A stretch of 41,297 bases of DNA from Syntrophorhabdaceae bacterium (GTDB lineage Bacteria > Desulfobacterota > Syntrophorhabdia > Syntrophorhabdales > Syntrophorhabdaceae). Under the pieces are notes generated by a model. That model did no database searches and had not been told where the DNA came from. It saw only the letters and a list, made by a program, of their open reading frames with translations. This document shows positions 6,388 through 33,062 of this stretch, piece by piece (position 1 is the first letter of the stretch; each line of letters opens with the position of its first letter). Location: positions 1-41,297 of the forward strand of contig JAQTNJ010000004.1 in the NCBI GenBank assembly GCA_028713955.1, read 5' to 3'. A program made the translations under genes and the position numbers.

Positions 6388-6406
6388 ATGTCTGATCCTA
6401 CTTTAT

Positions 6407-10144: not shown

Positions 10145-10165
10145 ATGTATGCTATGCAATAACTC

Positions 10166-11683: not shown

Positions 11684-11730
11684 AAAAACCTCCTAAATTT
11701 TTTAATTACTGACATTTTAGTCCCATAGAA

Positions 11731-12053: not shown

Positions 12054-12108
12054 ATTAAACACCTTCCAAATAGTAACCTTAAACCTGGGGTCGAGGAGGT
12101 GACCGAGA

Positions 12109-14040
12109 ATGCAAAACGCTGAAATTTGTTACATCTCGCCATATCCCGCCCTTACCTCCTTGATTCGCCAATGCTTTATTGAGACCCCGAAGCCACCGCT
12201 TGTCATCGAAGCAGCCAATGCTGCTGCCGAAATAGTATCGTACACTTCCTTGGAACAGGGTATTGAAGTCTTTGTTACCACAGAAAACAATGCCCGGTAC
12301 CTTAGAACCAGACTCAGTATGCCCATTGTCGTTATCCCCTTCACAGCCTTCGATACCATATGTGCACTGAAAGAGGCAAGTACCCAACATGGTCACCCGA
12401 TTGCCCTTTTCCAGTTTCTCTATCATAACCCCCTTTTACCGACTTTCGAGGAGATCATCAATTGCGATATTCAGGAGTTTGTATTCCAAAATGAAGACGA
12501 CGCCCGCGATAAATTGATACAAGCAAAAAAGGAAGGGTTCAAGGTTATTGTGGGCGGAGGGCTGGTTCACGCTATGGCGCAGCAGGTGGGTTGTGAAAGG
12601 GTGTTATTAATCCCCAAAAAAGAGGCTGTTTTATATTCGTACGACCAAGCGCAGCAGGTAGTGCTGGCCCGTCATACCGAAAGACACAAAGCGGTGGTTT
12701 TCAGATGTGTTGTTGAGTATTCTTTCGATGGTATTATTGTGATTGACAAAGAGAATAAGATAACTGTTTTCAACCCCGCCGCAGAACACATATTAGGCAT
12801 ACCGGCACAGAAGGCAATCGGCAACACTTTGTATGACGTATTACCGGAAAACATACTCCCCCCGGTTATCGAGAATGGCGTGGCACAACTTGATCAGGTA
12901 AAGACCTTCTCTCAAAAAAATATCATCATAAATGCTGTTCCCATTTACGATCACAAGGAACTCACTGAGGCTATATTCACCCTGCAGGAGGTAAAAAGAA
13001 TAGAATCCCTTGAGGAAAAGGTTCGTAGAACCACCCATAACAATGACTTCGCGGCAACAATGACCTTTGATGATATCATTACAATAAGCGACACGATACG
13101 TGGGATTATTAATCATGCAAAACGTTTTGCCAATTCAAAAGAAACTATCCTTATCACAGGCGAAACAGGTACTGGAAAAGAAATATTTGCTCAAAGCATC
13201 CATAATGAGAGCCCCTTCAGGGGCCACCCTTTTGTTGGGGTCAATTGCGCCGCTATTCCACCAACACTTTTAGAAAGCGAGCTCTTTGGGTATGCCGAGG
13301 GTTCTTTTACGGGGGCAAAACAAGGGGGCAAAAAAGGGCTCTTTGAACTCGCCCATGGGGGGACCATATTTCTTGATGAAATTGGCGAACTTCCACAGGA
13401 TGCTCAGTTAAGGCTGCTTCGTGTACTTCAGGAAAAACAGGTCAGGCGCGTCGGAGATATCAAGGTTATCCCCGTAGACGTGAGAGTCATTGCCGCTACA
13501 AACCAGCAGCTTGAAGATGCTGTAAGAAATGGGCGATTCCGGTCTGACCTTTATTATCGCTTGAATGTTCTGCAGTTGAGGATCCCTCCTTTGCGTGAGC
13601 GTCCTGAAGATATATTACCGCTGTCAGACTCTTTCTTACATCAATCCTGCACAAATACAGAAACCCGAATGATTATAAAGTTAATCTTGAATAAGTACCA
13701 GCAGGTTTTGACAGATTATTCATGGCCTGGCAACATCAGGGAACTCCAGAATCTTGTTAAAAGAATATCTGTACTTTGCGAAACAAAAACGGATGGCTCT
13801 ATTGAAGGGATTGTAAGGGATATGCTTAGTGAAATACTGAAGATATATCCTGAAAAGAATACAGAGATGCAGCAACCCTCTTCCATCGGTCTCAAAGACG
13901 TCTTAGAAAATACAGAGTCTGCTTTAATAGCCCGTCTTTATGAACAGGTGAATTATAATAAATCTGAGCTGGCCAGGCAATTAGGTGTAGGTAGAACAAC
14001 CCTGTGGCGTAAACTGAACAAGCTTGGATTAAAACAGTAA
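12109..14040 (+). CDS. sigma54-dependent activator with PrpR-N sensor, PAS, AAA+ and Fis-type HTH domains
   Basis: This 643-residue enhancer-binding protein is divergent from operon A. Residues about 1-190 resemble the PrpR N-terminal sensor domain, which in PrpR binds 2-methylcitrate. About 195-300 form a PAS domain (YSFDGIIVIDKENKITVFNPAAEHILG). The AAA+ domain covers about 320-555, with Walker A GETGTGKE at about 351, Walker B GGTIFLDEIGELP and the R-finger region RSDLYYRLNVL. The sigma54-contacting loop reads GSFTGA (about 398) instead of GAFTGA. The C-terminal HTH ends with SELARQLGVGRTTLWRK. A strong site GAGGAGGTGA precedes the ATG. It should respond to a small molecule from the local pathway and activate the sigma54 promoters at 11731 and 14142 (inference). 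A paralogue lies at 21130-23049. Confidence 0.92.
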   Translation: MQNAEICYISPYPALTSLIRQCFIETPKPPLVIEAANAAAEIVSYTSLEQGIEVFVTTENNARYLRTRLSMPIVVIPFTAFDTICALKEASTQHGHPIALFQFLYHNPLLPTFEEIINCDIQEFVFQNEDDARDKLIQAKKEGFKVIVGGGLVHAMAQQVGCERVLLIPKKEAVLYSYDQAQQVVLARHTERHKAVVFRCVVEYSFDGIIVIDKENKITVFNPAAEHILGIPAQKAIGNTLYDVLPENILPPVIENGVAQLDQVKTFSQKNIIINAVPIYDHKELTEAIFTLQEVKRIESLEEKVRRTTHNNDFAATMTFDDIITISDTIRGIINHAKRFANSKETILITGETGTGKEIFAQSIHNESPFRGHPFVGVNCAAIPPTLLESELFGYAEGSFTGAKQGGKKGLFELAHGGTIFLDEIGELPQDAQLRLLRVLQEKQVRRVGDIKVIPVDVRVIAATNQQLEDAVRNGRFRSDLYYRLNVLQLRIPPLRERPEDILPLSDSFLHQSCTNTETRMIIKLILNKYQQVLTDYSWPGNIRELQNLVKRISVLCETKTDGSIEGIVRDMLSEILKIYPEKNTEMQQPSSIGLKDVLENTESALIARLYEQVNYNKSELARQLGVGRTTLWRKLNKLGLKQ

Positions 14041-14141
14041 TACCACGTTAGCAGAAACATTTCCGATAACTATAATCACGCCACACATTATTGTATCGTT
14101 CGTTCAAAACAAGCATCCTGTACAAAACATTAAGAAAATTA

Positions 14142-14157
14142 TGGCATTGTTCTTGCA
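14142..14157 (+). promoter_or_regulatory. sigma54 (-24/-12) promoter of the ubiX-like gene
   Basis: The sequence TGGCATTGTTCTTGCA matches TGGCAY-N5-TTGCW, with only the loosely conserved purine after the -24 box absent. Predicted start of transcription is near 14169, giving a leader of about 75 bases to the ATG at 14243. I saw no clear copy of the GGAACA-type operator in the 100 bases upstream, so the activator may act from the site at 12011-12053 or from inside the regulator gene. Confidence 0.75.
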
Positions 14158-14242
14158 AAATATTTCTTTAATTTCATTAACCATGAACTTGTTACGTGGT
14201 TAACAGATTAACATACGATTTGCAATGAAGAGGAGGAGTTTC

Positions 14243-14833
14243 ATGAAAAAGATCATTGTGGCTATATCAGGGGCTTCAGGTATTCAATATGGCGTGAGGA
14301 TGTTGGAGGTGCTCTCTAAATTGGAGGTAGAGACCCACCTGGTCATCACAAAGTCCGGTATAAATAATCTATCGATAGAGACAAAATATACACGGTCCGA
14401 TCTTGAGTCTATGGCATCGTATGTATACGATTTTGAAGATGTCGGTGCCTCTATAGCAAGCGGGTCTTTCCCGATAGACGGTATGGTAGTAGCCCCCTGT
14501 TCTATAAAAACACTCTCTGCGATAGCAAATTCCTACAACAGCAACCTTGTTGTAAGGGCTGCAGATGTAACCCTCAAAGAAAGAAGAAGGCTCGTGTTGC
14601 TTGTGAGAGAGACCCCCCTCCACGAAGGTCACCTTGAACTCATGTTAAAGGTGACAAGGATCGGAGGTATTATAATGCCTCCGATCCCCGCCTTCTACCA
14701 CCTGCCGGAAACAATCATGGACATCGTTGATCAGACTATTGGCAAGGCGCTTGATCTCTTTTCAATAGATGCTAAACTTTTCACCAGATGGGGGACGGAA
14801 AATGAGGAATTGAAGGTAGAGCTGGTACAATAA
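14243..14833 (+). CDS. ubiX: UbiX family flavin prenyltransferase
   Basis: The product is 196 residues, the usual UbiX size. UbiX transfers a dimethylallyl group to reduced FMN to make prenylated FMN, the cofactor of UbiD enzymes. Diagnostic segments are the FMN-binding start IIVAISGASGIQYG (about 4-17), VVAPCSIKTLSAIANSY (about 86-102) and the C-terminal-half signature RAADVTLKERRRLVLLVRET (about 110-129). I chose the ATG at 14243 because GAGGAGG lies 8 bases upstream; the earlier in-frame ATG at 14225 has no ribosome site and would add six basic residues. Only one ubiX is visible for two ubiD-type genes, so it probably serves both. An own sigma54 promoter ties it to the catabolic regulon. 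Confidence 0.93.
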   Translation: MKKIIVAISGASGIQYGVRMLEVLSKLEVETHLVITKSGINNLSIETKYTRSDLESMASYVYDFEDVGASIASGSFPIDGMVVAPCSIKTLSAIANSYNSNLVVRAADVTLKERRRLVLLVRETPLHEGHLELMLKVTRIGGIIMPPIPAFYHLPETIMDIVDQTIGKALDLFSIDAKLFTRWGTENEELKVELVQ

Positions 14834-14895: not shown

Positions 14896-15198
14896 ATGAC
14901 AAAAAGACCACGAAGGAACCATGGAGCAGTATTCAAGGCAAAGGTAGCATTGGAAGCAATCAAGGGAGAGCAGACGTTGGTGAAGTTATCAGAGCGTTTC
15001 CAGGTACACCCGAACCAGATCGCCGAATGGAAGAAGGTCCTTTTGGAAAAGGCCCCTGAAGTATTCGACAAAGGGAAATCATCTCAGAAAGAACCTGATA
15101 TCAAGGAACTCCACGCCAAAATAGGGCAGCTTGCCATGGAGAACGATTTTTTATCAGTCGCACTCGGGCGCATAGACGGGCCGAGCGCAAAGAAATGA
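14896..15198 (+). CDS. IS3-family transposase OrfA
   Basis: This is a 100-residue OrfA protein. An N-terminal HTH_Tnp_1-like DNA-binding region (GAVFKAKVALEAIKGEQTLV then LSERFQVHPNQIAEWKK) is followed by a coiled-coil stretch (IKELHAKIGQLAMENDFLS) used for multimerisation. AAAGGAG precedes the ATG. Its stop overlaps the orfB start (ATGA at 15195-15198). The two frames differ by -1, so coupling or frameshifting could yield the OrfAB transposase; I did not see a classical A6G slippery stretch. Confidence 0.88.
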   Translation: MTKRPRRNHGAVFKAKVALEAIKGEQTLVKLSERFQVHPNQIAEWKKVLLEKAPEVFDKGKSSQKEPDIKELHAKIGQLAMENDFLSVALGRIDGPSAKK

Positions 15199-15992
15199 TC
15201 GACAAGGAGCATACGTTGCCTATTACAAGACAGTGCACAATACTGAACCTCTCCCGGTCAGGCATCTGCTACATCCCTGTCCCGGTAAGCGACAGCGACA
15301 GGGAGATCATGCGTTGTATCGACGAGATCCACCTGGAAGAGCCTTATCTCGGTTCCAGGGGAATAAAAAGCATTCCGAAAAGGAGGGGCTACACAATAGG
15401 CAGGATACATGTCCGTACCTTTATGAGAAAGATGGGCATCGAGGCCATCTACAAGAAGCCCCGTCTTTCAAAACCCCAGCCTGGTCATACGGTCTATCCC
15501 TATCTCCTTCGTGGGCTTGACATAACGGAGGCCAATCAGGTTTGGTGCTCGGATATAACCTATGTTCCCATGGAAAAGGGATTTTGCTACCTCGTCGCTA
15601 TAATGGACTGGGCAAGCAGGAAGGTGTTGTCGTGGAGGGTGTCAAATACGCTGGATACCTCATTTTGTATGGAAGTGCTGGAGGAAGCATTGATGAAATA
15701 TGGCAAACCCGATATATTCAATACCGACCAGGGAAGCCAGTTCACCTCTGACGCATTTACCGATATTCTCATACACAACAACATCCGTATCAGCATGGAC
15801 GGGCGCAATCGCTGGAGGGACAACATATTCATAGAGAGGCTATGGAAAACAGTAAAATATGAAGAGGTATATTTAAAGGCATATGAATCGATTACCCATG
15901 CGAAAAAGGAGCTTGAAAAATTCTTCGATCGGTATAATACCCGGCGGCCCCACCAGGGGCTTAACGACAGAACGCCTGACGAGGTGTACTGA
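15195..15992 (+). CDS. IS3-family transposase OrfB (DDE integrase core)
   Basis: This 265-residue DDE transposase has an N-terminal HTH_21-like region (DREIMRCIDEIHLEEPYLGSRGIKS in two parts) followed by the integrase core. The catalytic triad is visible as Asp in WCSDITYVP, Asp in FNTDQGSQFTS, and Glu in IFIERLWKTVKYEEVYL. The C-terminal signature NTRRPHQGLNDRTPDEVY is followed at once by a stop. Related proteins usually run a few residues further, so the end may be slightly clipped by the 10-base duplication at 15981-16000. Otherwise it looks intact and could be functional. Confidence 0.88.
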   Translation: MIDKEHTLPITRQCTILNLSRSGICYIPVPVSDSDREIMRCIDEIHLEEPYLGSRGIKSIPKRRGYTIGRIHVRTFMRKMGIEAIYKKPRLSKPQPGHTVYPYLLRGLDITEANQVWCSDITYVPMEKGFCYLVAIMDWASRKVLSWRVSNTLDTSFCMEVLEEALMKYGKPDIFNTDQGSQFTSDAFTDILIHNNIRISMDGRNRWRDNIFIERLWKTVKYEEVYLKAYESITHAKKELEKFFDRYNTRRPHQGLNDRTPDEVY

Positions 15993-16094
15993 GGTGTACT
16001 ATTGTACATTGCCAAGGATCAGGGATGCGGTATGAATGGAAGCAGTGAACCACTTAAAAAATGCCGGATGCTGTCTGAAAAGACTTGACCGGCT

Positions 16095-16419
16095 CTTCTT
16101 CTCGGCATCCCCGGCGATAAGATAAATGACGACCGGCTTTATCGCGCCCTCGATGCCCTTCGGCCCCACAAAGACGATCTGTGCAGACATCTCCAGAAGC
16201 GATACGGCAAACTCTTCTTCTTACCTTCGATTTTCTCTTCTACGATATCACCTCTACCTACTTTGAAGGGAACGCAAAGGGCAATCCCTAGGCAAAGAGA
16301 GGGGATACAGCAGGGACAGCCGTCCCGACTGTCCCCAGGTCACCATCGGTATTGTGGCAACGAGAGAAGGGTTGCCCATAGTTTTTGAGATCTTCGACGG
16401 CAACAGGACCGCATCATGA
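16095..16419 (+). pseudogene. IS1634/IS4-like transposase fragment, frameshifted
   Basis: This is an internal fragment of an IS1634-type transposase. One frame reads LGIPGDKINDDRLYRALDAL followed by RPHKDDLCRHLQKRYGKLFF (16101-16220). After a one-base shift near 16211-16225 the match continues as LTFDFLFYDITSTYFEGNAK, then an in-frame TAG at 16289, then AKRGYSRDSRPDCPQVTIGI and TREGLPIVFEIFDGNR up to about 16410. The N-terminal and C-terminal thirds are absent. It abuts an IS481-like fragment, so this is an IS remnant with several disabling lesions. Confidence 0.75.
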
Positions 16420-16436
16420 AACCTCTGAAAAGTGGA

Positions 16437-17015
16437 CAAAACAAAAAGGTGTTGACAACGGAGAGATGGAAACAGGGCATCCGGGCTATCTCGGCACCCA
16501 GGATACCTTCTATATCGGAAACCTGAAGGGAGTGGGAAGGATCTATCAGCAGGCCTTCATTGATACCTACAGTAAGGTAAGCATGGCCAAGCTTTATGAC
16601 AGAAAGAACGCTCTCGCCGCCGCTGATCTTTTAAGCGACCGGGCGCTTCCCTTTTTTGAAGAGCACCATATTCCTCTCCTCCGTTTGCTTACCGACAGGG
16701 GATCTGAATACTGCGGCAACAGAAAATACCATAAATATGAACTCTATCTGACCATGGAGGGGATCGAGTATACAAAGACCGAAACAAAATCGCCCCAGAC
16801 CAACGGTATATGCGAGAGGTTCCAAAGAACGGTGCTCAATGAGTTCTACCAGTGTTGAAGAGCTCCAGGAAAATCTCGATGAGTGGCTGAGGGAGCACAA
16901 CGAAAACCGCACCTACTCCGGCAGGTACTGCTTCGAGAAGACTCCCATGCAGACCTTTCTGGATACATTGCCCATGACGAGGGAGAAGATGATCAGGTAT
17001 CAGAAGACGGCATGA
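16437..17015 (+). pseudogene. IS481-family transposase, N-terminally deleted and frameshifted
   Basis: The integrase core of an IS481-type transposase is visible: GHPGYLGTQDTFYIGNLKG, VGRIYQQAFIDTYSKVSMAK (first catalytic Asp region), LLTDRGSEYCG (second Asp) and KSPQTNGICERFQRTVLNEF (Glu). The HTH half is missing. After EFYQ the frame stops at 16856. The C-terminal portion (SVEELQENLDEWLREHNENR, then GRYCFEKTPMQTFLDTLP) continues in another frame to the TGA at 17013, with a deletion at the junction. The sequence TGTCAGAAAACGTGTTGAC just beyond (17029-17047) may be the old element end. Confidence 0.8.
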
Positions 17016-19734: not shown

Positions 19735-20742
19735 ATGGGTAAATCCTATAAGCCGTATGATCTTGACCAGACATTCCTCCCGCCTCCATCTCTCCGGGAG
19801 TGGCTTCCCGCAAACCACCTTGTCTATTTTGTCGCCGATGTGGTGAAGGTCCTCGATCTGTCAAAGATCAAGGATGCGTACGGAAGTGATGAACGGGGTC
19901 AGCCTCCCTATCACCCTGCCATGATGGTTTCACTTCTTTTCTATGCGTACTGTATCGGCATCCCTTCTTCGCGTAAGATAGAAAAAAGAACACATGAAGA
20001 TATTGCCTTCCGGATCCTCGCCGCAGGACATCACCCGGATCACGACACGATCTCTTCGTTCCGGAATACCCACCTTCCTGCCTTGAAAGATTTTTTCCTT
20101 CAGATACTGCTGCTCTGCCGGGAAGCCGGGCTGGTAAAGGCGGGACACATCAGTCTTGACGGGACAAAGATGAAGGCCAATGCATCGAAGCACAAGGCCA
20201 TGAGCTACGGCCGCATGATGCAGCGCGAGAAGGAACTGGAACGGGAGATAGAAAGGCTTCTTGCGAAAGCCGATAAGGCCGATGCCCTGGAGGACGCGCT
20301 CTACGGCAAGGGCAAAAAAGGCGATGAGATCCCCGAAGAGTTCGCCTTCAGGGAAACAAGGCTTAAGAAGATCAAAGAGGCGAAGGCCGCCCTTGAGAAG
20401 CGTGTCCGGAAAGAAAAGGGCAAAGACCCCGATCCCAAAGACCAGATCAACTTCACCGATCCGGAAAGCAGAATAATGAAGGACTCCGCCACGAAGGAGT
20501 TCGTTCAGGGATACAACGCCCAGTGTGCGGTGGATACCGCATCGCAGATAATCATCGCCGCCGATGCGACCGGACAGACCAATGACAGGAAACAGATAGA
20601 GCCCATGACCGGTCTGATGCAGCACAATCTGGGACGTCTCCCGAAGTGGCTCTCTGCCGACGCGGGGTACTTCAGCGAAGACAATATCTCCTTTTTGCAA
20701 CGGCACACCATAGAGGCGCTTATTCCTCCCGTCAGGATATGA
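19735..20742 (+). pseudogene. IS1182-family transposase, interrupted (N-terminal two thirds)
   Basis: This 335-residue reading frame of an IS1182-type transposase starts with the N-terminal DUF772-like domain (TFLPPPSLREWLPANHLVYF, HPAMMVSLLFYAYCIGIPSS). It continues with the DDE core: HISLDGTKMKANASKHK supplies the first Asp, and LPKWLSADAGYFSEDN the second. A long charged helical insert lies at about 165-240. The frame stops after IPPVRI, and the remaining C-terminal part is found 170 bases further on (20915-21077) behind unrelated IS sequence. The element sits between the second synthetase and the second activator gene. Confidence 0.82.
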
Positions 20743-21129: not shown

Positions 21130-23049
21130 CTATCGTCGATTGTTTTGTTTCCGCCACAGGGTGGTTCGACAGATTCCCAATTTTTTTGCAAGCATGGTCT
21201 TATTGCCTTTGAAGGCCTCAGACTGTTGTTTGATAAAATATTCTTCAAGATGGGAGATCAAATTTTTGATATTCATGTCCTGTGGTGGGCATAGCTCAGA
21301 AGACGAGGTGTTAGCTTGCTTCAATCCTTCATTGATGACGTTGCCCACCTGATTGGATAGGGAGGTCTTGTCCTTTGTTTCTACTATTGCTAGCAATCGC
21401 CTTACTATATTTTGGAGTTCACGTATGTTTCCACGCCAAGAATGATGTAAGAAGATTTCCTGGTATTCCTGAAGAGCATCTTCAATCTGGGCTGTCCGTA
21501 TAGGATCGTTGCCAAATTGATTAAGAAAGGCGTGAATAAGAAACGGTATATCCTCGCTATGTTCTTTTAGGGGCGGAAGTTCCAATTGAAGTACATTGAG
21601 CCGATAATACAGGTCGCTTCTGAACAGACCCCTTTCTGTTGCCTCCTCTAGTAACTGGTTGGTAGCGCCGATTACCCGCGTGTCGACCCTTATTACTTTG
21701 TTATCGCCAACCCGCATAATTTCCTTTTCCTGAATTACCCTGAGTAAATGACTTTGAGCGTCCTTCGGCAATTCACCTATTTCATCGAGAAATATGGTTC
21801 CGCCCTTGGCGAGCTCGAACATACCCTGACGTCCACCCCGCCTGGCACCCGTAAAGGCGCCTTCTGCGTAGCCGAAGAGTTCGCTTTCGATAAGAGAGGG
21901 TGGTATAGCTGCGCAGTTGACTGCGACAAATGCGTTATCTTTCCTGGAACTTGCGTTGTGGATGCCTTGCGCGAAAAGCTCTTTTCCTGTACCCGTTTCC
22001 CCCGTGATAAGCACGGTCTCATCCGTTGCGGCAATGCGGCGGGCTTTCTCAATTACTTCAATCATTATAGAATTGTTTGATGAAATGATATCTGCGAAAG
22101 TAGACTTGGCCATAAGTCCACTGGCCTGTGGTTGACCTACCTTTAATTCCCTGCTTCGTTCTTTGTCTACAGGACGTACAGTGAAAACAGTCCCGACAAA
22201 CTCCTCGCGGTCAATTATTGGTATTCTGCTAATCAGCACGTGGTTTTTACCGATTACCTGGAGCTCTTCTACGCGATCGCGGTCTCCATATGTTGGACGG
22301 GCAAGAGGACCAGAGGGAACCAGATCTTGCAACGGTTTGCCAAGCGCACGCTTTGCAGGAAAACCGAAAATTTTCTCCGCAGAAGAATTGAATACGGTAA
22401 CCCGGTGGTCAGTATCAACCATAATAACGCCAGCCTCTGAATACTGTGTAATATAATGAAATCTAACTGCCTCGGACTGTTTTTCGCGACGTTCCTCAAG
22501 GATCTGTTTGGCCTGTTCATGGGCCTGTTTGATTGCTTCAATTCGAGGAAAAAGGGGAACACAGGGAACACCAACCTTACGGGCTGTCTCTGCAGTGAGT
22601 CCGCCGGTGACGGCTACCTTACATCCTTCCCGCTTCGCCTTGAGTAGCTTGTTTGCAGCGTCAGTCTGATCATTGATAATAAATTCTCTAATCTCACACC
22701 CAATTATGTCCTGGAATGCGGTGACGTAAGGATTATTAGAATGAAACTCGAAAAGTGCAATCGGATAACCGTAACGTTTCTTAGCTTGGTGTAGTGCATA
22801 GACAGCGTCAAATGCCGTGAACGGGATGTCGACAAAAGGTAGACTAAATCTGGTTCGGAGAAAGCGCGCATTTTTTTCCGTGGTGACAAACACCTCATAG
22901 CCATCCTGCAGGGACATCCGGACTATGCCTTCAGCAACTCCATACGCCCCCTCCGTAATCCTTGGAGGGTCAGGTAGTCCAGAAAAAATTCCTTCAAGTA
23001 TTCGTGTCAATTCTGTATATGGGGAGACAAAACAGATTTTTAAAGTCAT
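21130..23049 (-). CDS. second sigma54-dependent activator with PrpR-N, PAS, AAA+ and Fis-type HTH domains
   Basis: This is a 639-residue paralogue of the activator at 12109. PrpR-N-like sensor domain at about 1-195 (ICFVSPYTELTRILEG start), PAS domain at about 200-300 (YSEAGVIMVDTDHRVTVFNS), AAA+ domain at about 320-555 with Walker A GETGTGKE, canonical GAFTGA loop and Walker B GGTIFLDEIGELP. The C-terminal HTH reads MLAKKLGICRTTLWRK and shares the recognition-helix residues RTTLWRK with the first activator. GGAG precedes the ATG at normal spacing. It is divergent from operon B, and a 40-base palindrome lies between them, 56 bases from its own start. Likely target genes are operon B and the second synthetase (inference). 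The sensor domains of the two activators differ, so different inducers are possible. Confidence 0.92.
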   Translation of the reverse strand: MTLKICFVSPYTELTRILEGIFSGLPDPPRITEGAYGVAEGIVRMSLQDGYEVFVTTEKNARFLRTRFSLPFVDIPFTAFDAVYALHQAKKRYGYPIALFEFHSNNPYVTAFQDIIGCEIREFIINDQTDAANKLLKAKREGCKVAVTGGLTAETARKVGVPCVPLFPRIEAIKQAHEQAKQILEERREKQSEAVRFHYITQYSEAGVIMVDTDHRVTVFNSSAEKIFGFPAKRALGKPLQDLVPSGPLARPTYGDRDRVEELQVIGKNHVLISRIPIIDREEFVGTVFTVRPVDKERSRELKVGQPQASGLMAKSTFADIISSNNSIMIEVIEKARRIAATDETVLITGETGTGKELFAQGIHNASSRKDNAFVAVNCAAIPPSLIESELFGYAEGAFTGARRGGRQGMFELAKGGTIFLDEIGELPKDAQSHLLRVIQEKEIMRVGDNKVIRVDTRVIGATNQLLEEATERGLFRSDLYYRLNVLQLELPPLKEHSEDIPFLIHAFLNQFGNDPIRTAQIEDALQEYQEIFLHHSWRGNIRELQNIVRRLLAIVETKDKTSLSNQVGNVINEGLKQANTSSSELCPPQDMNIKNLISHLEEYFIKQQSEAFKGNKTMLAKKLGICRTTLWRKQNNRR

Positions 23050-23257: not shown

Positions 23258-23273
23258 TGGTATGGTTATTGCA
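23258..23273 (+). promoter_or_regulatory. sigma54-like promoter of operon B
   Basis: TGGTATGGTTATTGCA matches TGGCAYR-N4-TTGCW with one change, C to T, in the -24 box. Expected start of transcription is near 23285, about 30 bases before the aldolase ATG at 23317, which carries GGGGGAGG as ribosome site. The palindrome at 23105-23144 lies upstream at a normal enhancer distance. Confidence 0.7.
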
Positions 23274-23316: not shown

Positions 23317-24345
23317 ATGAGGAATTGCAGTATGAGACACAGGATTATTTTAAGTGTGCTGCTTATTCTGGTGCTGGCATCAGGAGTAACCCCTGCAATG
23401 GCTGATGTTAAGGTTGCCACAGGGGAGATTACAAAGGTAGAGGGTGGTGGTAAGGCTGTTACCATAAAAACAGACAGCGGGCAGACTATTGTTTCTAAAA
23501 TGAGGGCTAAACGGACTGAGGTCTTCCAGGGGGACAAATTGATTAGCTTTAAGGATATGAGGAAAGGCGACAGAGTCTGGCTGACATACAGGCCGGGAGG
23601 TAAAAACGAGGCTGGCGTAATCAAGGTAAATCCTGACCTGAAAAGTGAGACGGAACTCGTGAAAGACAAGATTGCACGCGCCGTCCGTATCCTCAACATG
23701 GAAGGTCTCGTGGCTTTTTCGGGTCATATCAGTGCGCGTATTCCGGGAGGAAAAACCTTTTTTATCCATAGTTATAACCAGGCAAGGGGAGAGGTGAAGC
23801 CATCTGACCTGTGTGAGGTTACGCTTGATGGCAAACAGCTCAACGAGAAATCGGAAGTCCCGGACGAAACGGCTATCCACGCGGCAGTTTACCGCGCTCG
23901 CGAGGATGTGAACGCGGTGATTCACATCCACCCGCACTATATCATCATCCCCAGTATCATCGGGAAAGACCTTATTCCGGTATGTGGGCACGGGACCATT
24001 TTTGGCACGAAGGTTCCTGTCTATCCTGACTCAGAAAAGATCGGGACCACGGAAGCTGCGAACAAGATGGTAAAATCCCTCGGCAAGGAAAGGGCCATAG
24101 TCCTGAGAGGACACGGCGCAGTGCTGGGTGAGGCTACGATAGAAGCAGTTGTGACCTCAGCCTTTTATATGGAAGAGAATGCGAAGCTTCTCGTTGATTC
24201 CTATATTATGGGGACACCGATACCCATGGCCGAGGAAGAGATCAAGAGAGCGGCAGAAAACACGTTCCAGCCCTTCAGCACAAAGAAGACATGGAAGTAC
24301 TACATAGATAAAGGACGCAAAGCCGGCATCTTCTGGGATAAGTAA
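23317..24345 (+). CDS. exported class II aldolase/adducin-family protein with N-terminal extra domain (operon B)
   Basis: The 342-residue protein combines three parts. Residues 1-29 are a signal peptide (basic start, IILSVLLILVLASGV core, cleavage after AMA). About 32-105 form a small beta-rich domain (GEITKVEGGGKAVTIKTDSG, KGDRVWLTY, EAGVIKV) resembling DUF5666-type OB-like folds. About 108-325 are a class II aldolase/adducin head domain. The zinc ligands of this family are visible as His203 and His205 in HIHPH and His266 in LRGHGAV, with a Glu in PDETAIHAA. Known members (fuculose-1-phosphate aldolase, decarboxylating relatives) are cytoplasmic, so the export signal is unusual. It is the first gene of operon B, directly after the sigma54 promoter. 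It may act on a substrate in the periplasm before uptake (inference). Confidence 0.85.
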   Translation: MRNCSMRHRIILSVLLILVLASGVTPAMADVKVATGEITKVEGGGKAVTIKTDSGQTIVSKMRAKRTEVFQGDKLISFKDMRKGDRVWLTYRPGGKNEAGVIKVNPDLKSETELVKDKIARAVRILNMEGLVAFSGHISARIPGGKTFFIHSYNQARGEVKPSDLCEVTLDGKQLNEKSEVPDETAIHAAVYRAREDVNAVIHIHPHYIIIPSIIGKDLIPVCGHGTIFGTKVPVYPDSEKIGTTEAANKMVKSLGKERAIVLRGHGAVLGEATIEAVVTSAFYMEENAKLLVDSYIMGTPIPMAEEEIKRAAENTFQPFSTKKTWKYYIDKGRKAGIFWDK

Positions 24346-24414: not shown

Positions 24415-25410
24415 GTGAAGATAGACAGTTACGCACATATCCTGCCAGTCAAGTTCAAAGAAGCACTCTATAGTTCTCCCAACGTCAAGACCTGGGTCAA
24501 AAAACAGCTTGAGGCCAATGTGGGGACCTTTGACTATGAGGTCAGGTTCAGGTTGCTCGATAAATATGACTGCGTTCAGGTGCTGAGCCTCGTTACTCCG
24601 CCCATCGAGGATGTGGCCGGTCCTGCCGAGGCAGTGGACCTTGCACGCCGTGCCAACGACGAGATGGCTGAGCTGATATATAAATATCCGGATCGCTTTG
24701 TTGCTGCGGTGGCAACCCTGCCGCTCAATGACATGGAAGCGACGCTTAAAGAGATCGACCGGGCAATCAACAACCTCAAGTTCAGAGGGGTACAGATATT
24801 CTCGTCCATTAACGGGAAGCCCCTCGACTCACCCGAATTCTTCCCGATGTACGAGAAGATGGCAGCATACGATCTACCCCTTCTGATCCACCCCGTACGC
24901 GGTTCAACACAGGCAGACTATCCTGGCGAGAAAGACTCGAAGTATGGTATCTGGTCGATATTCGGCTGGCCTTTTGAAACAACGGCAGCAATGACGAGGC
25001 TTGCCTTTAGCGGGGTGCTTGACAAGTTTCCCGGGATCAAGTTCATGACCCACCATCTCGGAGGCATGGCCCCTTACTTTGAGGAACGTATCAGGGACGC
25101 ATATGATATGCTTGAGATGCGCTATCCGGGGAATATCAAGAAGGGACTCCTGAGGTCGCCGGTGGACTACCTGAAGATGTTCTATGCCGATACGGCGATC
25201 AACGGGAGCTTGGCAGGAACTGCGTGTGGTCTTGCCTTTTTCGGACCGGAGCACGTGCTCTTTGGTACTGACACGCCTTTTGACAGTCAACTCGGCTTCA
25301 GGCTCGTGCGGGAACAGATTGAGTGCATAGAGCGGCTCGATATCACCGAAGCGGAGAAGAAGCTGATCTTCGAGGGGAACGCACGAAGAATTTTTCGTTT
25401 GCCAATATGA
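24415..25410 (+). CDS. amidohydrolase-2 (ACMSD-like) family protein, possible decarboxylase (operon B)
   Basis: This 331-residue TIM-barrel protein belongs to the amidohydrolase-related family that includes ACMSD and gamma-resorcylate decarboxylase. It starts at a GTG with GGGGGTAGAGAA upstream. The metal-site elements are partly recognisable: first strand IDSYAHILP, where the usual HxH reads YxH; LLIHPVRG (His); KFMTHHLGG (His pair); and VLFGTDTPFD (Asp) near the C-terminus, followed by the typical ending IFEGNARRIF. No signal peptide is present. The family mostly decarboxylates or hydrates unsaturated and aromatic acids without oxygen, which would suit an anaerobic acid-degrading operon; the actual substrate is unknown. 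It lies 69 bases after the aldolase gene. Confidence 0.85.
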   Translation: MKIDSYAHILPVKFKEALYSSPNVKTWVKKQLEANVGTFDYEVRFRLLDKYDCVQVLSLVTPPIEDVAGPAEAVDLARRANDEMAELIYKYPDRFVAAVATLPLNDMEATLKEIDRAINNLKFRGVQIFSSINGKPLDSPEFFPMYEKMAAYDLPLLIHPVRGSTQADYPGEKDSKYGIWSIFGWPFETTAAMTRLAFSGVLDKFPGIKFMTHHLGGMAPYFEERIRDAYDMLEMRYPGNIKKGLLRSPVDYLKMFYADTAINGSLAGTACGLAFFGPEHVLFGTDTPFDSQLGFRLVREQIECIERLDITEAEKKLIFEGNARRIFRLPI

Positions 25411-25546: not shown

Positions 25547-26587
25547 ATGAAGAGAGAAAGGAACAAAGAGGTAACAGTTTTTGCTGCAGCATTAGCTGTA
25601 GCACTAGTATGTGTCATGATCTGTGGTGTTCAAACATCGGCGGTTGCATCTCCTGAGAAAAAGGTGACGTTAACTCTGATGTCTGCGAAGTTCGGATCAA
25701 GCGACTACATCCTCGGCAGCGCTGTAGAGAAGATTGTCAACAAGCTAAACCATCCCTGGCTTAAAATTATGACCGTTGAGGGCATTGGGGGTACCGATAA
25801 CATAGTGACTTACGACAAACTCTCCTTAGAGAAGAAACGAAGGACTATCATGAACGTAGGTGATGCGGGCTACTATGCTGCAGTTTTGGGGATGAAACCC
25901 TGGTTCACGAAGAAATACAAGAACTTGAGGGCAGTCTGCTCCTTTGGGACAGGAGAAATGTTTTTTGCCACAATGAACCCATCGATCAAGAGTATATACG
26001 ACCTTGAAGGGAAAACTCTGGGTGGACCGGACATGGGTTCCTCTGCGTCAGTGCGCCTCCGGGAGTTTCTTAAGGCAGCGGACATGACCGGAAAAATCAA
26101 CATCAAATGGCTCGGTTTCTCGAAGGCAGCGGAGGCCCTACAGGACAGGAGGGTCGATGCCATCATTGTTGTTTCCTTCTCGAAGAGAGTTGCCCCGGGA
26201 TTTACCTCCCTTTGGACCAAACAGGATAAAATCTATGTCTTTGGCATGCCCGCGGATCTCTTCCCCAAGGTCCATGCAGCAGGCTGGCCCTTTCGGGCGG
26301 TTACGATAAAACCTCTGACCTACACGCCGAACCAAACGACCGAGATTACTGTACACCAGATGCTTGCTCGCACCTATTTTACTGGCGTGGAGGCAGATGC
26401 AGATACTATATACGAATTTGTAAAACTTATGTATCAGAATGTTGACAAGTTTAAGCAGTACCTCCCGGCAGGAACAAGCCCGACCAGGGATGAGTTGTCC
26501 AATCTTCCGGTTGATTCGGAAGCGGAGGTCCATCCGGGAGCGCTCAGATTCTTCAAAGAGATGAAAGTGAAGATAGGTGCACCGTGA
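25547..26587 (+). CDS. TAXI family TRAP transporter solute receptor (operon B)
   Basis: This 346-residue receptor is paralogous to the one in operon A but clearly divergent. The signal peptide (residues about 1-34) has a basic KRERNKE start, a hydrophobic core VFAAALAVALVCVMICGV and a cleavage site near AVA. The mature domain begins LTLMSAKFGSSDYILGSAVEKI, and the second lobe includes SIYDLEGKTLGGPDMGSSAS, the TAXI hinge region. AAGGAGG precedes the ATG. The ligand is unknown. Its permease gene begins 37 bases after its stop. Confidence 0.88.
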   Translation: MKRERNKEVTVFAAALAVALVCVMICGVQTSAVASPEKKVTLTLMSAKFGSSDYILGSAVEKIVNKLNHPWLKIMTVEGIGGTDNIVTYDKLSLEKKRRTIMNVGDAGYYAAVLGMKPWFTKKYKNLRAVCSFGTGEMFFATMNPSIKSIYDLEGKTLGGPDMGSSASVRLREFLKAADMTGKINIKWLGFSKAAEALQDRRVDAIIVVSFSKRVAPGFTSLWTKQDKIYVFGMPADLFPKVHAAGWPFRAVTIKPLTYTPNQTTEITVHQMLARTYFTGVEADADTIYEFVKLMYQNVDKFKQYLPAGTSPTRDELSNLPVDSEAEVHPGALRFFKEMKVKIGAP

Positions 26588-26624
26588 CGGAAAACAACTC
26601 TTTGGTAGAGGAGGTGACGAAGAA

Positions 26625-28502
26625 ATGAAGACAGCAGAACTATATACGAAACGAGATATCATTATTATAGCCATAGCGGTAATGGCTGTTTTATACCACT
26701 TTGCCTATATTGCGTTCACCATGTTCGGACCCACGCAGCACCAGATCATCCATCTCGGGCTGGTCCTCATTCTCGTCTGCCTTGCCCTACCTAAAGGGAA
26801 AAAGAAGCCTAACATACTTCAACTCCCGACACTCATCGTCGCAGCAATCTGTATCATCTATGTCTGGATTAATTATGAGGATCTCGAAATCAGGGCAGGC
26901 CACCCTATACCCCTTGATGAGGTGGTGGGTTGGCTTCTCATTGCAGCCGTGCTCTCGACAACTTGGATGTCCTTCGGCTGGGTTCTGCCAATTCTCAGCC
27001 TAGTTGGCATTGTGTACATGTTTGTTGCCCCATACATGCCGGGATCGCTTCAGGGACCGGAACTAAGTTCCTCGAAGATTATTAGTTATTTAGTAATAGG
27101 TTTCCGGGGTATCTTCGATGTACTCCTTGATGTCTCCGCCAAGGAGATATTTCCCTTTATCATCTTCGGTTCCTTTCTCATCATAACAGGCGCCCATATC
27201 TTTTTTAACGAGGTGGGAAAGATTGTGGCGCGACGGTTTGTCGGGGGCTCCGCCCTGAATTGTGTAGTAAGCAGCGGTTTGCTTGGTATGATCACCGGAA
27301 CCCCGGCGGCCAATGTCGCTGTCACGGGCACGTTTACCATACCCTCCATGAAGGCCGATGGGAGGTCACCGGAAGAGGCTGCGGGGTTCGAGGCGTGCGC
27401 AGCCACAGGGGGTACCGTCATGCCACCTGTCATGGGTGCAACTGCCTTTATCATGGCAGGCGTCATGGGTATCGCGTACGCACACATCTGTTACATCGCT
27501 ATTATACCGGCCGTCCTTTATTACCTTCTACTCCTTTTCAGTGCTCAAGTGACCGGGAAGAAACTACGCCTGAAACCATCGTCCGAAGGGGTAAATTGGC
27601 ATAACCTTGCGATATACTCTCCAACCTTCCTCTTGCCCATCTGTTTGCTCACAATATTTCTAATATCGGGTATCAGCGCCATATATGCGGTGTTATGGAC
27701 CTCAATAGTTTTAATCTTAGTCAGCTTTATCCAAAAGAAGACAAGACCCACAGTGAAGAAATTCATCAGTGCCTGTAAGGATGGCGCCATGATGGCAGCT
27801 CGGATTGGCGTTGCCTGTGCCTGTATCGGAATGCTCGCCTCCGCCCTTCAGGTAACACAACTCGCCATGAGGCTGCCCGACATCATCGAAGCTCTTTCAT
27901 TCGGCAATCTCTTCATCTCGCTTGTCTGGGCTGCCATTGTGGGTATAATCTTGGGCTGTGGCATGCCGGGTATGGCTGTCTACATCATCCTCGTCATCGT
28001 AGCTGTTCCCATTCTTGAAAACTTAGGTGTCGAAAAAGAGGCTTCCCATATGTTCATGCTCTACTATGCGGTTTTCTCTGCCATCACTCCGCCGGTTGCA
28101 CTGGCAACTATCGTTGCGGCCAAGGTTGCAGAGGCAGATTTCTGGGGTGCTGGCTGGCAGGGGGTCAAGATTGGGATAGTGGGTCTTAGCATTCCCTTTA
28201 TCTTCGTCTATAGGCCGGAACTATTGCTTGTGCCGGGCACCACTTTAGGGAGCGTGACTTTGGCCTTTACGGTTGTCGTGATTACCTACATTCTTGCTGT
28301 TGCGTTATTAAACAACTTCTTACTACAGAGGCTTAGCCTAATAGAAATGGTCATCTCAGGGATCTCCGTTGCTACCTTACTTGTCTACCTCTTTTGGCAA
28401 AACCATTTGGCCCTTATTGTGGGACTATCAGGTGCCTGCATTATTTTCATCTGGCAAGGGGTAGTGGAAAAAAGGCGTCGGATCGAGGCTGTAAAGGCAT
28501 AG
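26625..28502 (+). CDS. TRAP transporter permease, fused 4TM/12TM type (operon B)
   Basis: This 625-residue permease pairs with the upstream TAXI receptor. The start at ATG 26625 is supported by GAGGAGGTGA just upstream; the longer frame from GTG 26577 overlaps the receptor gene and adds only polar residues. About 16 membrane helices are seen. Signature segments are MITGTPAANVAVTGTFTIPS and TGGTVMPPVMGATAFIMAGV in the first repeat of the DctM part, and GCGMPGMAVYIILVIVAVPI with AVFSAITPPVAL in the second. It carries the import of an organic anion with Na+. Confidence 0.9.
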   Translation: MKTAELYTKRDIIIIAIAVMAVLYHFAYIAFTMFGPTQHQIIHLGLVLILVCLALPKGKKKPNILQLPTLIVAAICIIYVWINYEDLEIRAGHPIPLDEVVGWLLIAAVLSTTWMSFGWVLPILSLVGIVYMFVAPYMPGSLQGPELSSSKIISYLVIGFRGIFDVLLDVSAKEIFPFIIFGSFLIITGAHIFFNEVGKIVARRFVGGSALNCVVSSGLLGMITGTPAANVAVTGTFTIPSMKADGRSPEEAAGFEACAATGGTVMPPVMGATAFIMAGVMGIAYAHICYIAIIPAVLYYLLLLFSAQVTGKKLRLKPSSEGVNWHNLAIYSPTFLLPICLLTIFLISGISAIYAVLWTSIVLILVSFIQKKTRPTVKKFISACKDGAMMAARIGVACACIGMLASALQVTQLAMRLPDIIEALSFGNLFISLVWAAIVGIILGCGMPGMAVYIILVIVAVPILENLGVEKEASHMFMLYYAVFSAITPPVALATIVAAKVAEADFWGAGWQGVKIGIVGLSIPFIFVYRPELLLVPGTTLGSVTLAFTVVVITYILAVALLNNFLLQRLSLIEMVISGISVATLLVYLFWQNHLALIVGLSGACIIFIWQGVVEKRRRIEAVKA

Positions 28503-28680: not shown

Positions 28681-30126
28681 ATGTTTGAGGATTTGCGTGA
28701 GTGGATGAAAGAAGTTAACAAGATAAACGAGCTTGTCGTTATCAATGGTGCTGATACGGACGATTTTGGACCTGTGAGCCAGATAACATCTCGCAATGAG
28801 GCACAGGCCGTTATTTTTGATAACGTCAAGGGTTACAAGCCCGGCTTCAGGATGGCGGCAAACATGATGCAAAATATCAGGACATTCAATCTAGCCCTCG
28901 GATTACCTTTAGATTATTCGATCAAACAAACTATTGAAGTGCTGACAAAAAAAGTTGCAGAGTGGAATGAGAAATCAGTTCAGTTCGATCCGGTCGAAGT
29001 GAAGGATGCACCCATCCTAGAAAATGTGAAAACCGGCGATGAAATTGACCTGAGTATCTTCCCGGTTCCGAAATGGCATGATTTTGATGGAGGCCCTTAC
29101 ATAGGTACAGCGGACAATATTATTACCAGAGACCGCGAAACGGGCCTTGTGAACCTGGGCACGTATCGGTCACAGCTTCTTAACAAGAATACGGTGAGTA
29201 TATTTATCTCGCCGGGCCATCACGGCAGACTCCATTATGAAAAATACTTCGAGAAGGGAGAACCCTGTCCTATCGTTATGGTATATGGCTCAGACCCCAC
29301 AACCTTTGTCATTTCTTCACAGGAGATCCCGGAAAAAATCTCTGAGCTTAATTACATTGGTGCCATAAGAAACAAGCCGGTGCCGGTAGTGAAAGGCAAG
29401 GTAACGGGACTTCCTATTCCTGCTGGCGCCGAAGTCGCTGTCGAGGGTTTTCTTTATCCGGGGCAGACGATGCCCGAAGGACCTTTCGGCGAGTGGCCTG
29501 GTTATTATGCGGGTGGTGTGGTAGACCGGCCGTTTCTTAAGCCGGAGGTGCTCTATTACAGAAACAATCCAATCCTCACCGGTTGCCCGCCTGCAAAGGC
29601 AATATGGGCTGACCAGGCATTTCTTAGGTCTGTGTTGCGCTCCGCACTTCTATACAGCGAGATGTTAAGTGCCAATGTACCCGGTGTTAAAGGGGTGTGG
29701 GTTCCTCAGGTTGGCGGTTCCAGGCATCTGATAATTGTAGCCATAGAGCAGCGATATGCTGGTCATGCTACCCAGGCAGGCCTTGTTGCTACCGGTACAA
29801 GGGCTGGAGCTATGCAGGGAAGATACACGATTATCGTTGATGATGATATAGACATCTATGACATGGAAGATGTGATGTGGGCAATCTGTACAAGGTCAAG
29901 GCCTCATGAAACGGATCTCATAAAAGTTACGTGGAGCACAGAAACAGACCCAACGATTAGGAAACCGTCCGAGAACCTGACGACATCAAGAGCTATTATA
30001 TATGCGGTGAGACCATGGGAATGGAGAGATGAATTTCCAAAAGTGGATATGGCAACTGCCGAGACAAGAACAGAGGTCTTGAACAAGTACAAAGATCTCT
30101 TCGGCGGAAGGTGGAAACAGATTTGA
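28681..30126 (+). CDS. UbiD family (de)carboxylase (operon B)
   Basis: This 481-residue UbiD-family protein uses prenylated FMN. Family landmarks are ISIFPVPKWHDFDGGPYIGT-like segment DLSIFPVPKWHDFDGGPYIG (about 122-141), TGLVNLGTYRSQ (about 155, supplying the conserved Arg), and PAGAEVAVEGFLYPG. The full catalytic motif EGPFGEW is present, with Glu266 and Glu271, unlike the UbiD in operon A. The ending GVVATGTRAGAMQGRYTIIV-type segment (TGTRAGAMQGRYTIIVDDDI) is also typical. AAGGAGG stands 7 bases before the ATG. It is probably a genuine decarboxylase or carboxylase for an aromatic acid, with cofactor from the UbiX at 14243. Confidence 0.9.
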   Translation: MFEDLREWMKEVNKINELVVINGADTDDFGPVSQITSRNEAQAVIFDNVKGYKPGFRMAANMMQNIRTFNLALGLPLDYSIKQTIEVLTKKVAEWNEKSVQFDPVEVKDAPILENVKTGDEIDLSIFPVPKWHDFDGGPYIGTADNIITRDRETGLVNLGTYRSQLLNKNTVSIFISPGHHGRLHYEKYFEKGEPCPIVMVYGSDPTTFVISSQEIPEKISELNYIGAIRNKPVPVVKGKVTGLPIPAGAEVAVEGFLYPGQTMPEGPFGEWPGYYAGGVVDRPFLKPEVLYYRNNPILTGCPPAKAIWADQAFLRSVLRSALLYSEMLSANVPGVKGVWVPQVGGSRHLIIVAIEQRYAGHATQAGLVATGTRAGAMQGRYTIIVDDDIDIYDMEDVMWAICTRSRPHETDLIKVTWSTETDPTIRKPSENLTTSRAIIYAVRPWEWRDEFPKVDMATAETRTEVLNKYKDLFGGRWKQI

Positions 30127-30358: not shown

Positions 30359-31645
30359 ATGAGAAAATTATTAATTGTTATGCTTATATTGTTCCTTGCA
30401 CCGCCTGTTTTTAGCTATGCAGGTACTGTGGCAAGTAGATGGGATATAAGCATTGGTGGTTTCGTAAAGTTTGATGGCGGCTGGGCAAGCCAAGGGGTCA
30501 ACGGTGATTACCTTTATGCATCACCGGAAAGCATCACCGGCAACAAGAACGTAGTTGATGAGTATGGCAACTCCTTTATGGCATCCGGTGAAACAAGGCT
30601 TAATTTCGCCATTAAAGGCCCTAACGCATGGGGAGCAAAGACATCGGCCTTCATTGAGGGCGATTTCAGACAGTCTGGTGCATATGAAGGCTTCAGGTTG
30701 AGGCATGCCTGGTTGAAATTTGATTGGGCAAAGACATCCCTTCTCATCGGTCAGGCTTCAACGAAATGGAAAGGGATGACCACGTATAACGTGCTTGGAA
30801 TATCTGAGCTCGCAATGGCAAAAACCAACAGGGTTCCACAGATTATGTTTACAACGAAGTTTACAAAAAACTGGTCGTTATCCTACGGTATAGTTTCTCA
30901 GTATAAATCGAACTTAGCAGGCGGCTCCAGGGCGCCCACCGGTATCCCTGCGGCTTCAAATACACAGAGATTAAACGATCTGCCGTTTGTTGAAAGTGAA
31001 TTAGTCTATAAAACCGATACCTACGGCAAGATCGGTCCTAGGCCATTGACATTGGCTTTTGGCGGATTCATAGGTAGAGACAAGATTGCAAGGCGTTCAG
31101 GTGTAGCAGGCACACAATGGTATGATGATGATGCAAACACATGGGGGCTTGCATTTAAAGGCTTTATACCGGTTATTCCCGAGAAAAAAGGCAACAAGGC
31201 TGGTTCACTCGCCTTTACCGGCACAATAGTAATCGGACAAGGGTCAAGTACAGAAAGGTATCCTTCAGATGTCTGGGATGCATACGTAAGACGAGCTTCA
31301 ATCACTGCAACAGACTTTGATGCAGCGAATGCGACAAATTCAGCAGGATGGGCAGAGTTGACCTACTACTTTACAGACAGTATTTATGCGAGTGCTGTAT
31401 ACGGTACTAGCCAGTGGAACTTAAGCAGTACAATCAGGAACGACGCAACGTATATGAACTCAAATTATCCAAGATCGGTTCAGCACTACGTTGTAAACCT
31501 GATGTATGATGTCAATCAGGCAATCAGGTTTGGTGTAGAATATACGCATATTAACACAGCTTATGCTAGGGCTCAGGCTGCAGGCAGCGGCGGAGCGAGT
31601 GGCTCTCTTGATGTCGGCCGTGTAGCAGCGTGGTATTTCTTCTGA
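30359..31645 (+). CDS. outer-membrane porin-like beta-barrel protein (operon B)
   Basis: The 428-residue protein has a clear signal peptide (residues 1-22, MRKLLIVMLILFLAPPVFSYAG) and alternating polar/aromatic strands throughout, for example KTSAFIEGDFRQSG, FRLRHAWLKFDW and SLSYGIVSQY. It ends with a terminal Phe (VAAWYFF), the usual C-terminal signal for outer-membrane assembly. No Cys is seen. The general plan resembles trimeric porins or DcaP-like outer-membrane proteins of acid degraders. AAAGGAGGTAGG precedes the ATG. As the last gene of operon B, before a strong terminator, it would let the organic acid cross the outer membrane to reach the TAXI receptor (inference). Confidence 0.78.
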   Translation: MRKLLIVMLILFLAPPVFSYAGTVASRWDISIGGFVKFDGGWASQGVNGDYLYASPESITGNKNVVDEYGNSFMASGETRLNFAIKGPNAWGAKTSAFIEGDFRQSGAYEGFRLRHAWLKFDWAKTSLLIGQASTKWKGMTTYNVLGISELAMAKTNRVPQIMFTTKFTKNWSLSYGIVSQYKSNLAGGSRAPTGIPAASNTQRLNDLPFVESELVYKTDTYGKIGPRPLTLAFGGFIGRDKIARRSGVAGTQWYDDDANTWGLAFKGFIPVIPEKKGNKAGSLAFTGTIVIGQGSSTERYPSDVWDAYVRRASITATDFDAANATNSAGWAELTYYFTDSIYASAVYGTSQWNLSSTIRNDATYMNSNYPRSVQHYVVNLMYDVNQAIRFGVEYTHINTAYARAQAAGSGGASGSLDVGRVAAWYFF

Positions 31646-31800: not shown

Positions 31801-33062
31801 AGTGTCCGGTAAAACTTTATAAAAGTATGGCCTGTTCTTTGTACTTGTCGGATATAAAGGCAACGAAACCCAAATCCTTCAAGGAGGAACAGACCATGAA
31901 CAGAGTATACAATATTTGCAGAGTTGTTAAAGCTTTGTCCGAGATATCAATTTGAAAGGACCACAGAGCGCTATAGAGGTAACCGTTACGTGAAGACCTT
32001 TACGGCATGGCAGCAGTATATCACTGTTCTTTATTCCCAGATTACACATAAGGACAGCCTGCGGGACATCGAGACGGGACTTGCCGGTAAGTCAGACCGC
32101 CTCTATCATCTGGGCTTAAGCGGGATACACAGAAGCACACTCTCCGATGCCAACGCGAAAAGGGATTACCGGATATTCGAGGACATGTTTTATCATCTTC
32201 TTATACGATCCCGGGACCTCACCCCGAAACACAGATTCCGGTTCAGGAATCCCCTCTATACGATCGACGCAACCGTCATCGATCTGTGTCTGTCGGTATT
32301 TCCCTGGGCAAGGTTCAGGAAAACCAAGGGTGCGGTAAAGATGCATTGCCTCTATGACCACTCGGGGCCCTTCCGTCCTTTCTGACCGTTACCGACGGTA
32401 AGCGGCATGAGGTGACAGCGGCACGGGAGACCCCGTTCCTTTTGTTGCCGGACAGCATCGTCTCCGTCGATAAGGCGTATATCGATTACACATGGCTGTA
32501 TTCGTTGAACATGAAGAGGATATGGTTTGTCACCAGGGCAAAGTCGAATATTGATTATGCTGTTGCCGGACAGCATCCGGTAAAAGACAAAAGGGTCATA
32601 AGCGATGAGCGAATATCCCTGGAAGGACCGCTTACCAGACACAAATATCCCCGGGATTTGAGGCTCATCAGATTCTATGATGAGGAGAGACAGAAGACCC
32701 TCACGTTTTTAACGAACAACTTCAGGCTTGCCGCAACAACAATAGCGCAGATATACAAATCCCGGTGGCAGATCGAACTGTTCTTCAAATGGATCAAGCA
32801 GAACCTGAAGATCAAATCATTCCTTGGCACAAGTAAGAATGCCGTTCTGACGCAAATATGGGTGGCCATGTGCTACTATCTGCTTCTCACCTACATCAAA
32901 TACCAGACGAAATATGGGTACTCTCTGCTGCAACTGAGCAGAATGATCCGTGAAATGCTTTTTGACCGGAAGAGTCTTATTGACATTTTGACTGTGCATC
33001 CTGAACATCTCCCAGCCGTGAGAAATGAGACGCTGCAGGGAGCTTTATTTTAACCGGACAGT
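31801..33062 (+). mobile_element. IS4-family insertion sequence with terminal inverted repeats
   Basis: The element of about 1.26 kb is bounded by AGTGTCCGGTAAAACTTTAT on the left and, read inward, ACTGTCCGGTTAAAATAAAG on the right; the first 14 bases agree with two differences. It carries one broken transposase gene. No target-site duplication was evident. It separates operon B from the downstream MFS gene. Confidence 0.82.
31897..33053 (+). pseudogene. IS4-family transposase with two frameshifts
   Basis: The gene starts at the ATG at 31897 (MNRVYNI) after AAGGAGG. A base is missing near 31914, after which the match continues in another frame as ELLKLCPRYQFERTTERYRG, the DUF4372-type N-terminus, and TIDATVIDLCLSVFPWARF (first catalytic Asp). 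A second missing base near 32376-32384 stops this frame after HSGPFRPF. The third frame resumes with LTVTDGKRHEVTAAR, SIVSVDKAYIDY (second Asp), and SRWQIELFFKWIKQNLKIKS (Glu). The catalytic residues survive, but the chain is broken, so the copy is probably inactive unless supplied in trans. Confidence 0.82.

Follow-up and report, generated by a model that had tools for sequence, protein, structure and literature searches.

The gene at positions 23317–24345 of the plus strand encodes a real and conserved enzyme that belongs to a known family but takes an apparently undescribed form, in which a class II aldolase is preceded by a signal peptide and a small β-barrel domain. The window, that is, the whole stretch of DNA analysed, is 41,297 nucleotides long and comes from a Syntrophorhabdaceae bacterium. 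Our overall reading, to which we give a probability of roughly one half, is that the protein is a Sec-exported, divalent-metal-dependent lyase, carried behind an OB/CusF-like domain, which trims a substrate ahead of a TRAP/amidohydrolase/UbiD pathway. The elements of this proposal that are read from the sequence are the architecture, the conserved signal peptide, the intact active site, the gene order and a promoter match.

The gene is a single clean frame of 342 codons, with an ATG start and a ribosome-binding site (GGAGG) 8 nt upstream of it. The protein consists of three parts, a Sec signal peptide, a β-barrel domain of approximately 75 residues and a class II aldolase domain, and the features within it are as follows.

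23317..24345, plus strand: fused exported class II aldolase gene, 342 aa (open reading frame, Pfam, full-length homologue in L058)
23317..23403, plus strand: Sec signal peptide, residues 1–29, predicted cut between AMA and D (sequence, n/h/c scorer, counterpart in L058)
23404..23640, plus strand: N-terminal OB/CusF-like β-barrel domain, residues 30–108 (predicted models, Foldseek match to CusF, free-standing homologues)
23665..24342, plus strand: class II aldolase domain, residues 117–342 (PF00596, fold match to 2z7b)
23866..23868, plus strand: Glu184, at the position of the FucA catalytic Glu73 (alignment column common to REF_6btd and 2z7b)
23923..23931, plus strand: His203 and His205, metal ligands in HIHPH (sequence, alignment)
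24112..24114, plus strand: His266, third metal ligand, in LRGHG (sequence, alignment)

A tetramer with the active site at the subunit interface is characteristic of the class II aldolase/adducin superfamily. PF00596, whose cut-off is 22 bits, matches residues 118–292 of the window protein at 123 bits (E value 1.6e-35). A full-length homologue with three matching parts, 55% identical over residues 2–342, is present at 8013–9020 of L058, a locus from another deltaproteobacterial MAG; it was located using a three-sequence alignment as query, while a single-protein scan of the genome contigs gave no match. These two are the only fused copies known: none was found beyond L058 in the samples of the order, phylum and class, where the pattern scan detects only copies with exact short matches and more may exist. 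No close homologue of the window aldolase was found in the 45 further genomes of its order. Between the two copies, pN is 0.40 and pS 0.70 for the N-domain, and 0.21 and 0.77 for the aldolase part; silent sites are near saturation and the values are rough, and as a rough estimate they suggest purifying selection on both folded parts. The original prediction of a signal peptide, an extra N-terminal domain and an intact metal site is borne out by the top rank of the signal peptide in our scorer, by the predicted model and by the presence of E184, H203, H205 and H266; the search that it proposed for other aldolases carrying the N-domain yielded the copy in L058, the only further one in the samples.

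Phylogenetic analysis of 156 sequences puts the window protein and its L058 homologue in one clade (support 99), within a group (support 100) that also contains the cytoplasmic sisters L154 and L152, and a second cytoplasmic group (L031, L060, L157) lies nearby. A UbiD gene adjoins five of the eight members of these two groups taken together (the window, L059, L060, L159 and L234; not L058, L160 or L161). The survey also covered 34 loci with class II aldolases from elsewhere in the family, and none of them has a UbiD; as locus lengths vary, this is a tally rather than a test. One of the five, L159, is a cytoplasmic paralogue in the genome of L058 itself, which directly adjoins UbiD and has a TctA gene near, and in L059 and L060 there is TctC/TctA alongside UbiD. 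By sequence, the two fused proteins stem from a clade of cytoplasmic enzymes that is repeatedly found beside UbiD decarboxylases and tripartite transporters. The window UbiD is 39–44% identical to the aldolase-linked UbiDs and up to 38% identical to paralogues in its own genome, which is only suggestive of a single pathway. We note two further groups of cytoplasmic aldolases. L061–L077 form a tight clade from deltaproteobacterial and Binatia MAGs, with an ORF of about 120 aa just downstream followed by ORFs of about 480 and 820 aa, and UbiD was seen in none of these loci. In the paralogues L033 and L037, His ligands are replaced (R at 203, N at 266), and these proteins are possibly non-enzymatic.

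The genes surrounding the aldolase in the window are listed below, together with the promoter match.

21130..23049, minus strand: divergent PrpR_N-PAS-AAA sigma-54 activator (Pfam)
23258..23273, plus strand: sigma-54 (−24/−12) promoter, TGGTATGGTTATTGCA (strict pattern match)
24415..25410, plus strand: Amidohydro_2 protein (Pfam; solved-structure relatives)
25547..26587, plus strand: TAXI-family TRAP solute-binding protein with signal peptide (profile matches, scorer)
26619..28502, plus strand: fused TRAP permease (profile matches)
28681..30126, plus strand: UbiD-family (prFMN) decarboxylase (profile matches)
30359..31645, plus strand: porin-like outer-membrane protein with signal peptide, the probable operon end (sequence, scorer)

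The gaps between the genes of the proposed operon are 70–233 bp. The closest named solved relatives of the Amidohydro_2 protein are mostly ACMSD, γ-resorcylate and 5-carboxyvanillate decarboxylases. For the strict sigma-54 pattern TGGYAYNNNNNTTGCW, 0.23 sites would be expected in the window by chance and three are present. Each precedes a gene by a short distance: the UbiD gene at 11683, a UbiX-like gene at 14225, and the aldolase. For the last of these, transcription is predicted to start about 30 bases upstream of the ATG, so that the signal peptide lies within the message. Gene order and promoter agree with the earlier suggestion that the aldolase opens a transporter operon, the transporter here being of the TAXI-TRAP type. 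Transposase genes or pieces of them are found at 15195–16858, 19735–20742 and 31924–33053; because these flank the operon, and because no close homologue of the aldolase turned up in the order's 45 remaining genomes, the operon looks mobile.

A second, parallel set of genes occupies 3206–14833 of the window, comprising a TRAP permease, a TAXI protein, an ADP-forming acyl-CoA synthetase, UbiD, a PrpR-type activator and the UbiX-like gene. Its UbiD is distant from the other one in the window (26% identity), and its sigma-54 sites are at 11731 (minus strand) and 14142 (plus strand). Elsewhere in the window, an RluD-like pseudouridine synthase ORF at 35789–36853 contains in-frame RAESGEQRAEGRGTRD-type repeats near its middle, a repeat element within a coding gene, and there is a tmRNA gene at 40611–40962 (RF00023, 197 bits).

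The organism probably breaks down aromatic acids. We propose that the window protein would have arisen by fusion of a cytoplasmic, UbiD-associated aldolase with a signal peptide and a small secreted barrel domain. The PrpR-type sigma-54 activator probably switches on the aldolase together with the porin, the TAXI-TRAP importer, the homologue of amidohydrolase-type decarboxylases and UbiD. An aromatic or hydroxy acid would enter through the porin; the periplasmic, metal-dependent aldolase-fold lyase would cleave one of its carbon–carbon bonds; and the TRAP transporter would import the product, on which the amidohydrolase and UbiD would then act. The reaction type, the substrate and the order relative to uptake are what we infer from these neighbours and from the relatives of the enzyme. 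Decarboxylation appears more likely than retro-aldol or sugar-phosphate aldol cleavage, because the best match by both fold and sequence is the decarboxylase 2z7b, because the best family model, although below its cut-off, is also a decarboxylase, and because the operon contains two decarboxylase-type enzymes. The tree sets the window clade apart from 2z7b, and the term decarboxylase therefore rests on distant similarity and on neighbours. The strongest counter-evidence to the proposal as a whole is that L058 is without the operon and that cytoplasmic sisters are found next to UbiD. The pathway can do without export, since the nearest relatives that adjoin UbiD and transporters are cytoplasmic, and the same chemistry is evidently also carried out after uptake, as far as the predicted location of these relatives can tell.

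These observations leave room for an alternative that we consider rather unlikely, in which the protein is an active exported lyase whose substrate is unrelated to TRAP or UbiD (it might, for example, remove a reactive carbonyl or a hydroxy acid from the periplasm) and which came to lie in the operon by chance rearrangement. In its favour, L058 encodes a matching protein at a locus with neither a transporter nor a UbiD operon, and the window is a mobile patchwork, with transposases at 19735–20742 and 31924–33053 around an operon for whose aldolase no close homologue was found in the rest of the order's sampled genomes. However, the parent clade is UbiD-linked in five of eight cases, one of which is the cytoplasmic paralogue from the genome that carries L058, and the sigma-54 site reads straight into the aldolase. 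We prefer the reading in which the lyase serves the TRAP/amidohydrolase/UbiD pathway.

Export is not confined to the fused pair. Signal peptides were found in 20 sampled class II aldolases, comprising the two fused proteins and 18 more, and the metal site is kept in all of the lineages, of which there are at least three besides that of the window protein. The order to which the window belongs contains two exported groups, one with L038 and the other with L041, L145, L147, L149 and L150; further exported sequences come from the family of Bradyrhizobium (L090, L167–L175, L177 and L182). L003 is export-like but falls under the strict cut and is outside the 20. On the tree there are nine changes of export label, at least five of them forced by well-supported branches, with gains and losses not separated. 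The original prediction held that known members of the family are cytoplasmic; this is correct for the characterised enzymes as far as found, but not for sequences, given these 20. Its reading of an exported enzyme would have been undermined by a lack of homologues with signal peptides, and L058 and the 18 others provide them. Searches of an open-access library for papers that place class II aldolases in the periplasm or describe their export gave none of relevance, and repeated, separate export within this family seems not to have been described before. In L198, an exported TctC-type solute-binding protein is encoded 25 bp downstream of an exported aldolase, and in L205 an exported solute-binding-like protein precedes one. 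In Bradyrhizobium sp. BTAi1 (L090, 6126–8696), the exported aldolase directly follows a gene that by eye is galactarate dehydratase-like, a possible sugar-acid context for exported aldolases. A broader reading, which we consider less likely than not, is that lyases with the class II aldolase fold became periplasmic on several independent occasions in order to trim substrates outside the cytoplasm, by decarboxylation or C–C cleavage, to a product that fits a tripartite transporter, and that the window version gained a dedicated OB-barrel escort domain.

The presence of solute-binding proteins next to exported aldolases at several loci would also fit a non-catalytic periplasmic protein, for binding or docking, that uses the aldolase fold as a scaffold, as adducin does, and passes its ligand on to the TAXI protein. 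Adducin belongs to this fold family without being an enzyme, and it is also a fold match of the window protein. We nevertheless regard this as improbable: the equivalents of Glu184, His203, His205 and His266 are kept in all 20 exported sequences, whereas the cytoplasmic L033 and L037 illustrate how they can be lost.

The signal peptide itself, MRNCSMRHRIILSVLLILVLASGVTPAMA, is predicted to be cut after A29, ahead of DV, and ranks top of 167 class II aldolase ORFs in a simple scorer of n-, h- and c-regions; the solute-binding proteins and the porin of the window score level with it. In the same scorer, cytoplasmic homologues fell far below it, cytoplasmic control proteins showed no signal peptide, and none of 97 internal Met starts passed. 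The sequence and the scorer reveal a charged n-region, a hydrophobic core and an AXA cut site, as in substrates of Sec signal peptidase I, and the L058 signal peptide ends in ALA before E, such that both fused copies have an AXA site. Export combined with an intact active site is well supported at the sequence level, and would place the aldolase in the periplasm in vivo. The nearest relatives are cytoplasmic, and a GTG at codon 115 is close to where cytoplasmic homologues begin; the protein could on that basis act in the cytoplasm, either with the signal peptide as an uncleaved anchor or from an internal start at GTG115 or at ATG128. We think this very improbable. There is no convincing ribosome-binding site upstream of GTG115 and L058 lacks an equivalent start codon there, leaving an internal start without support, and the N-domain is conserved and folded, with AXA cut sites in both copies. 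That two genes were joined by an assembly or gene-calling artefact, as might be feared in a MAG-like assembly of 371 contigs, can be dismissed, because the independent genome of L058 has the matching fusion at 55% identity and the window gene is one clean open frame.

The decarboxylation of aromatic acids and aldol cleavage are generally assigned to the cytoplasm; if the proposal is true, exported enzymes of this fold would place a carbon–carbon cleaving step outside the cell membrane. Genome-based guesses of the substrates of TRAP and TTT importers would then change, the transported molecule being a product and not the nutrient. The interest lies mainly in the several export events of this fold, which are testable.

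In the full-length predicted model, the N-domain (residues ~30–105) has seven strands with pLDDT of 91–96. The earlier description of it as DUF5666-like did not stand: four N-domain sequences gave no match to DUF5666 (PF18914) at E ≤ 10, nor was DUF5666 matched anywhere in the window genome. A PHROGs search gave no match. By fold, the best match of the predicted model in Foldseek is instead E. coli CusF (E = 1.6e-4, TM 0.68), followed by OB proteins such as IF-1 and CspA; the match to the CusF sequence profile is marginal (E = 0.013). The domain also occurs free-standing, in proteins of approximately 105–130 aa; of the order's 45 further genomes, up to 17 encode such a protein, and those whose sequences were read carry signal peptides; in the window genome it is found only as the fused copy. 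The simplest origin for the window protein is thus fusion of a small secreted barrel protein to an aldolase-family gene, and the barrel may serve in folding, docking or oligomer packing.

Compared to known systems, the N-domain shares its OB barrel with CusF, the periplasmic Cu/Ag chaperone of E. coli. CusF binds its metal through His, Met, Met and Trp. This site is absent from the window N-domain, which has no His in residues 30–105 and whose Met residues are not shared with L058, and CusF-like metal delivery to the aldolase site is ruled out by the missing ligands.

For the aldolase domain, the best solved structure both by sequence (E = 5.4e-21) and by fold (target TM 0.91) is 2z7b, the 3-hydroxy-2-methylpyridine-4,5-dicarboxylate decarboxylase Mlr6791 of Mesorhizobium loti. 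It has the metal site and the Glu in common with the window protein, but is 27% identical in the fold alignment and is not known to have a signal peptide or an N-domain. It falls in a different clade of 42 rows (support 95) without the window protein, and the tree thus rejects a grouping of the two; the branch of 2z7b is long and its exact place unsure. The best NCBIfam model is that of PhtC, 3,4-dihydroxyphthalate decarboxylase (NF053537), at 102.9 bits, far under the curated equivalog cut-off of 200 bits, and we do not assign the protein to this family. FucA, L-fuculose-1-phosphate aldolase, shares the fold, the three His and the Glu73 equivalent; its Tyr113 position is apparently His225 in the window clade, from the sequence alignment only. 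Unlike the window protein, FucA is cytoplasmic and has no N-domain.

Pyruvic oxime dioxygenase (8iqa, 8ix6) also has the class II aldolase fold and is a strong fold match (PMC5216522, PMC11841055); it is predicted to be cytoplasmic (PMC5216522). It lacks a Glu73 equivalent in sequence, and the window protein has E184 and H137 where 8ix6 has A and Q; because the Glu absent from the dioxygenase is present here, a similar dioxygenase activity is unlikely from the sequence. Finally, PMC6362003 cites DhbB of Pseudomonas reinekei MT1 as a class II aldolase-family decarboxylase in aromatic catabolism, and OpaD, an amidohydrolase-superfamily enzyme of another strain, as performing DhbB's decarboxylation step in its own pathway. 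DhbB belongs to an aerobic ring-cleavage pathway, which is a difference; the window operon has one member of each of these two families.
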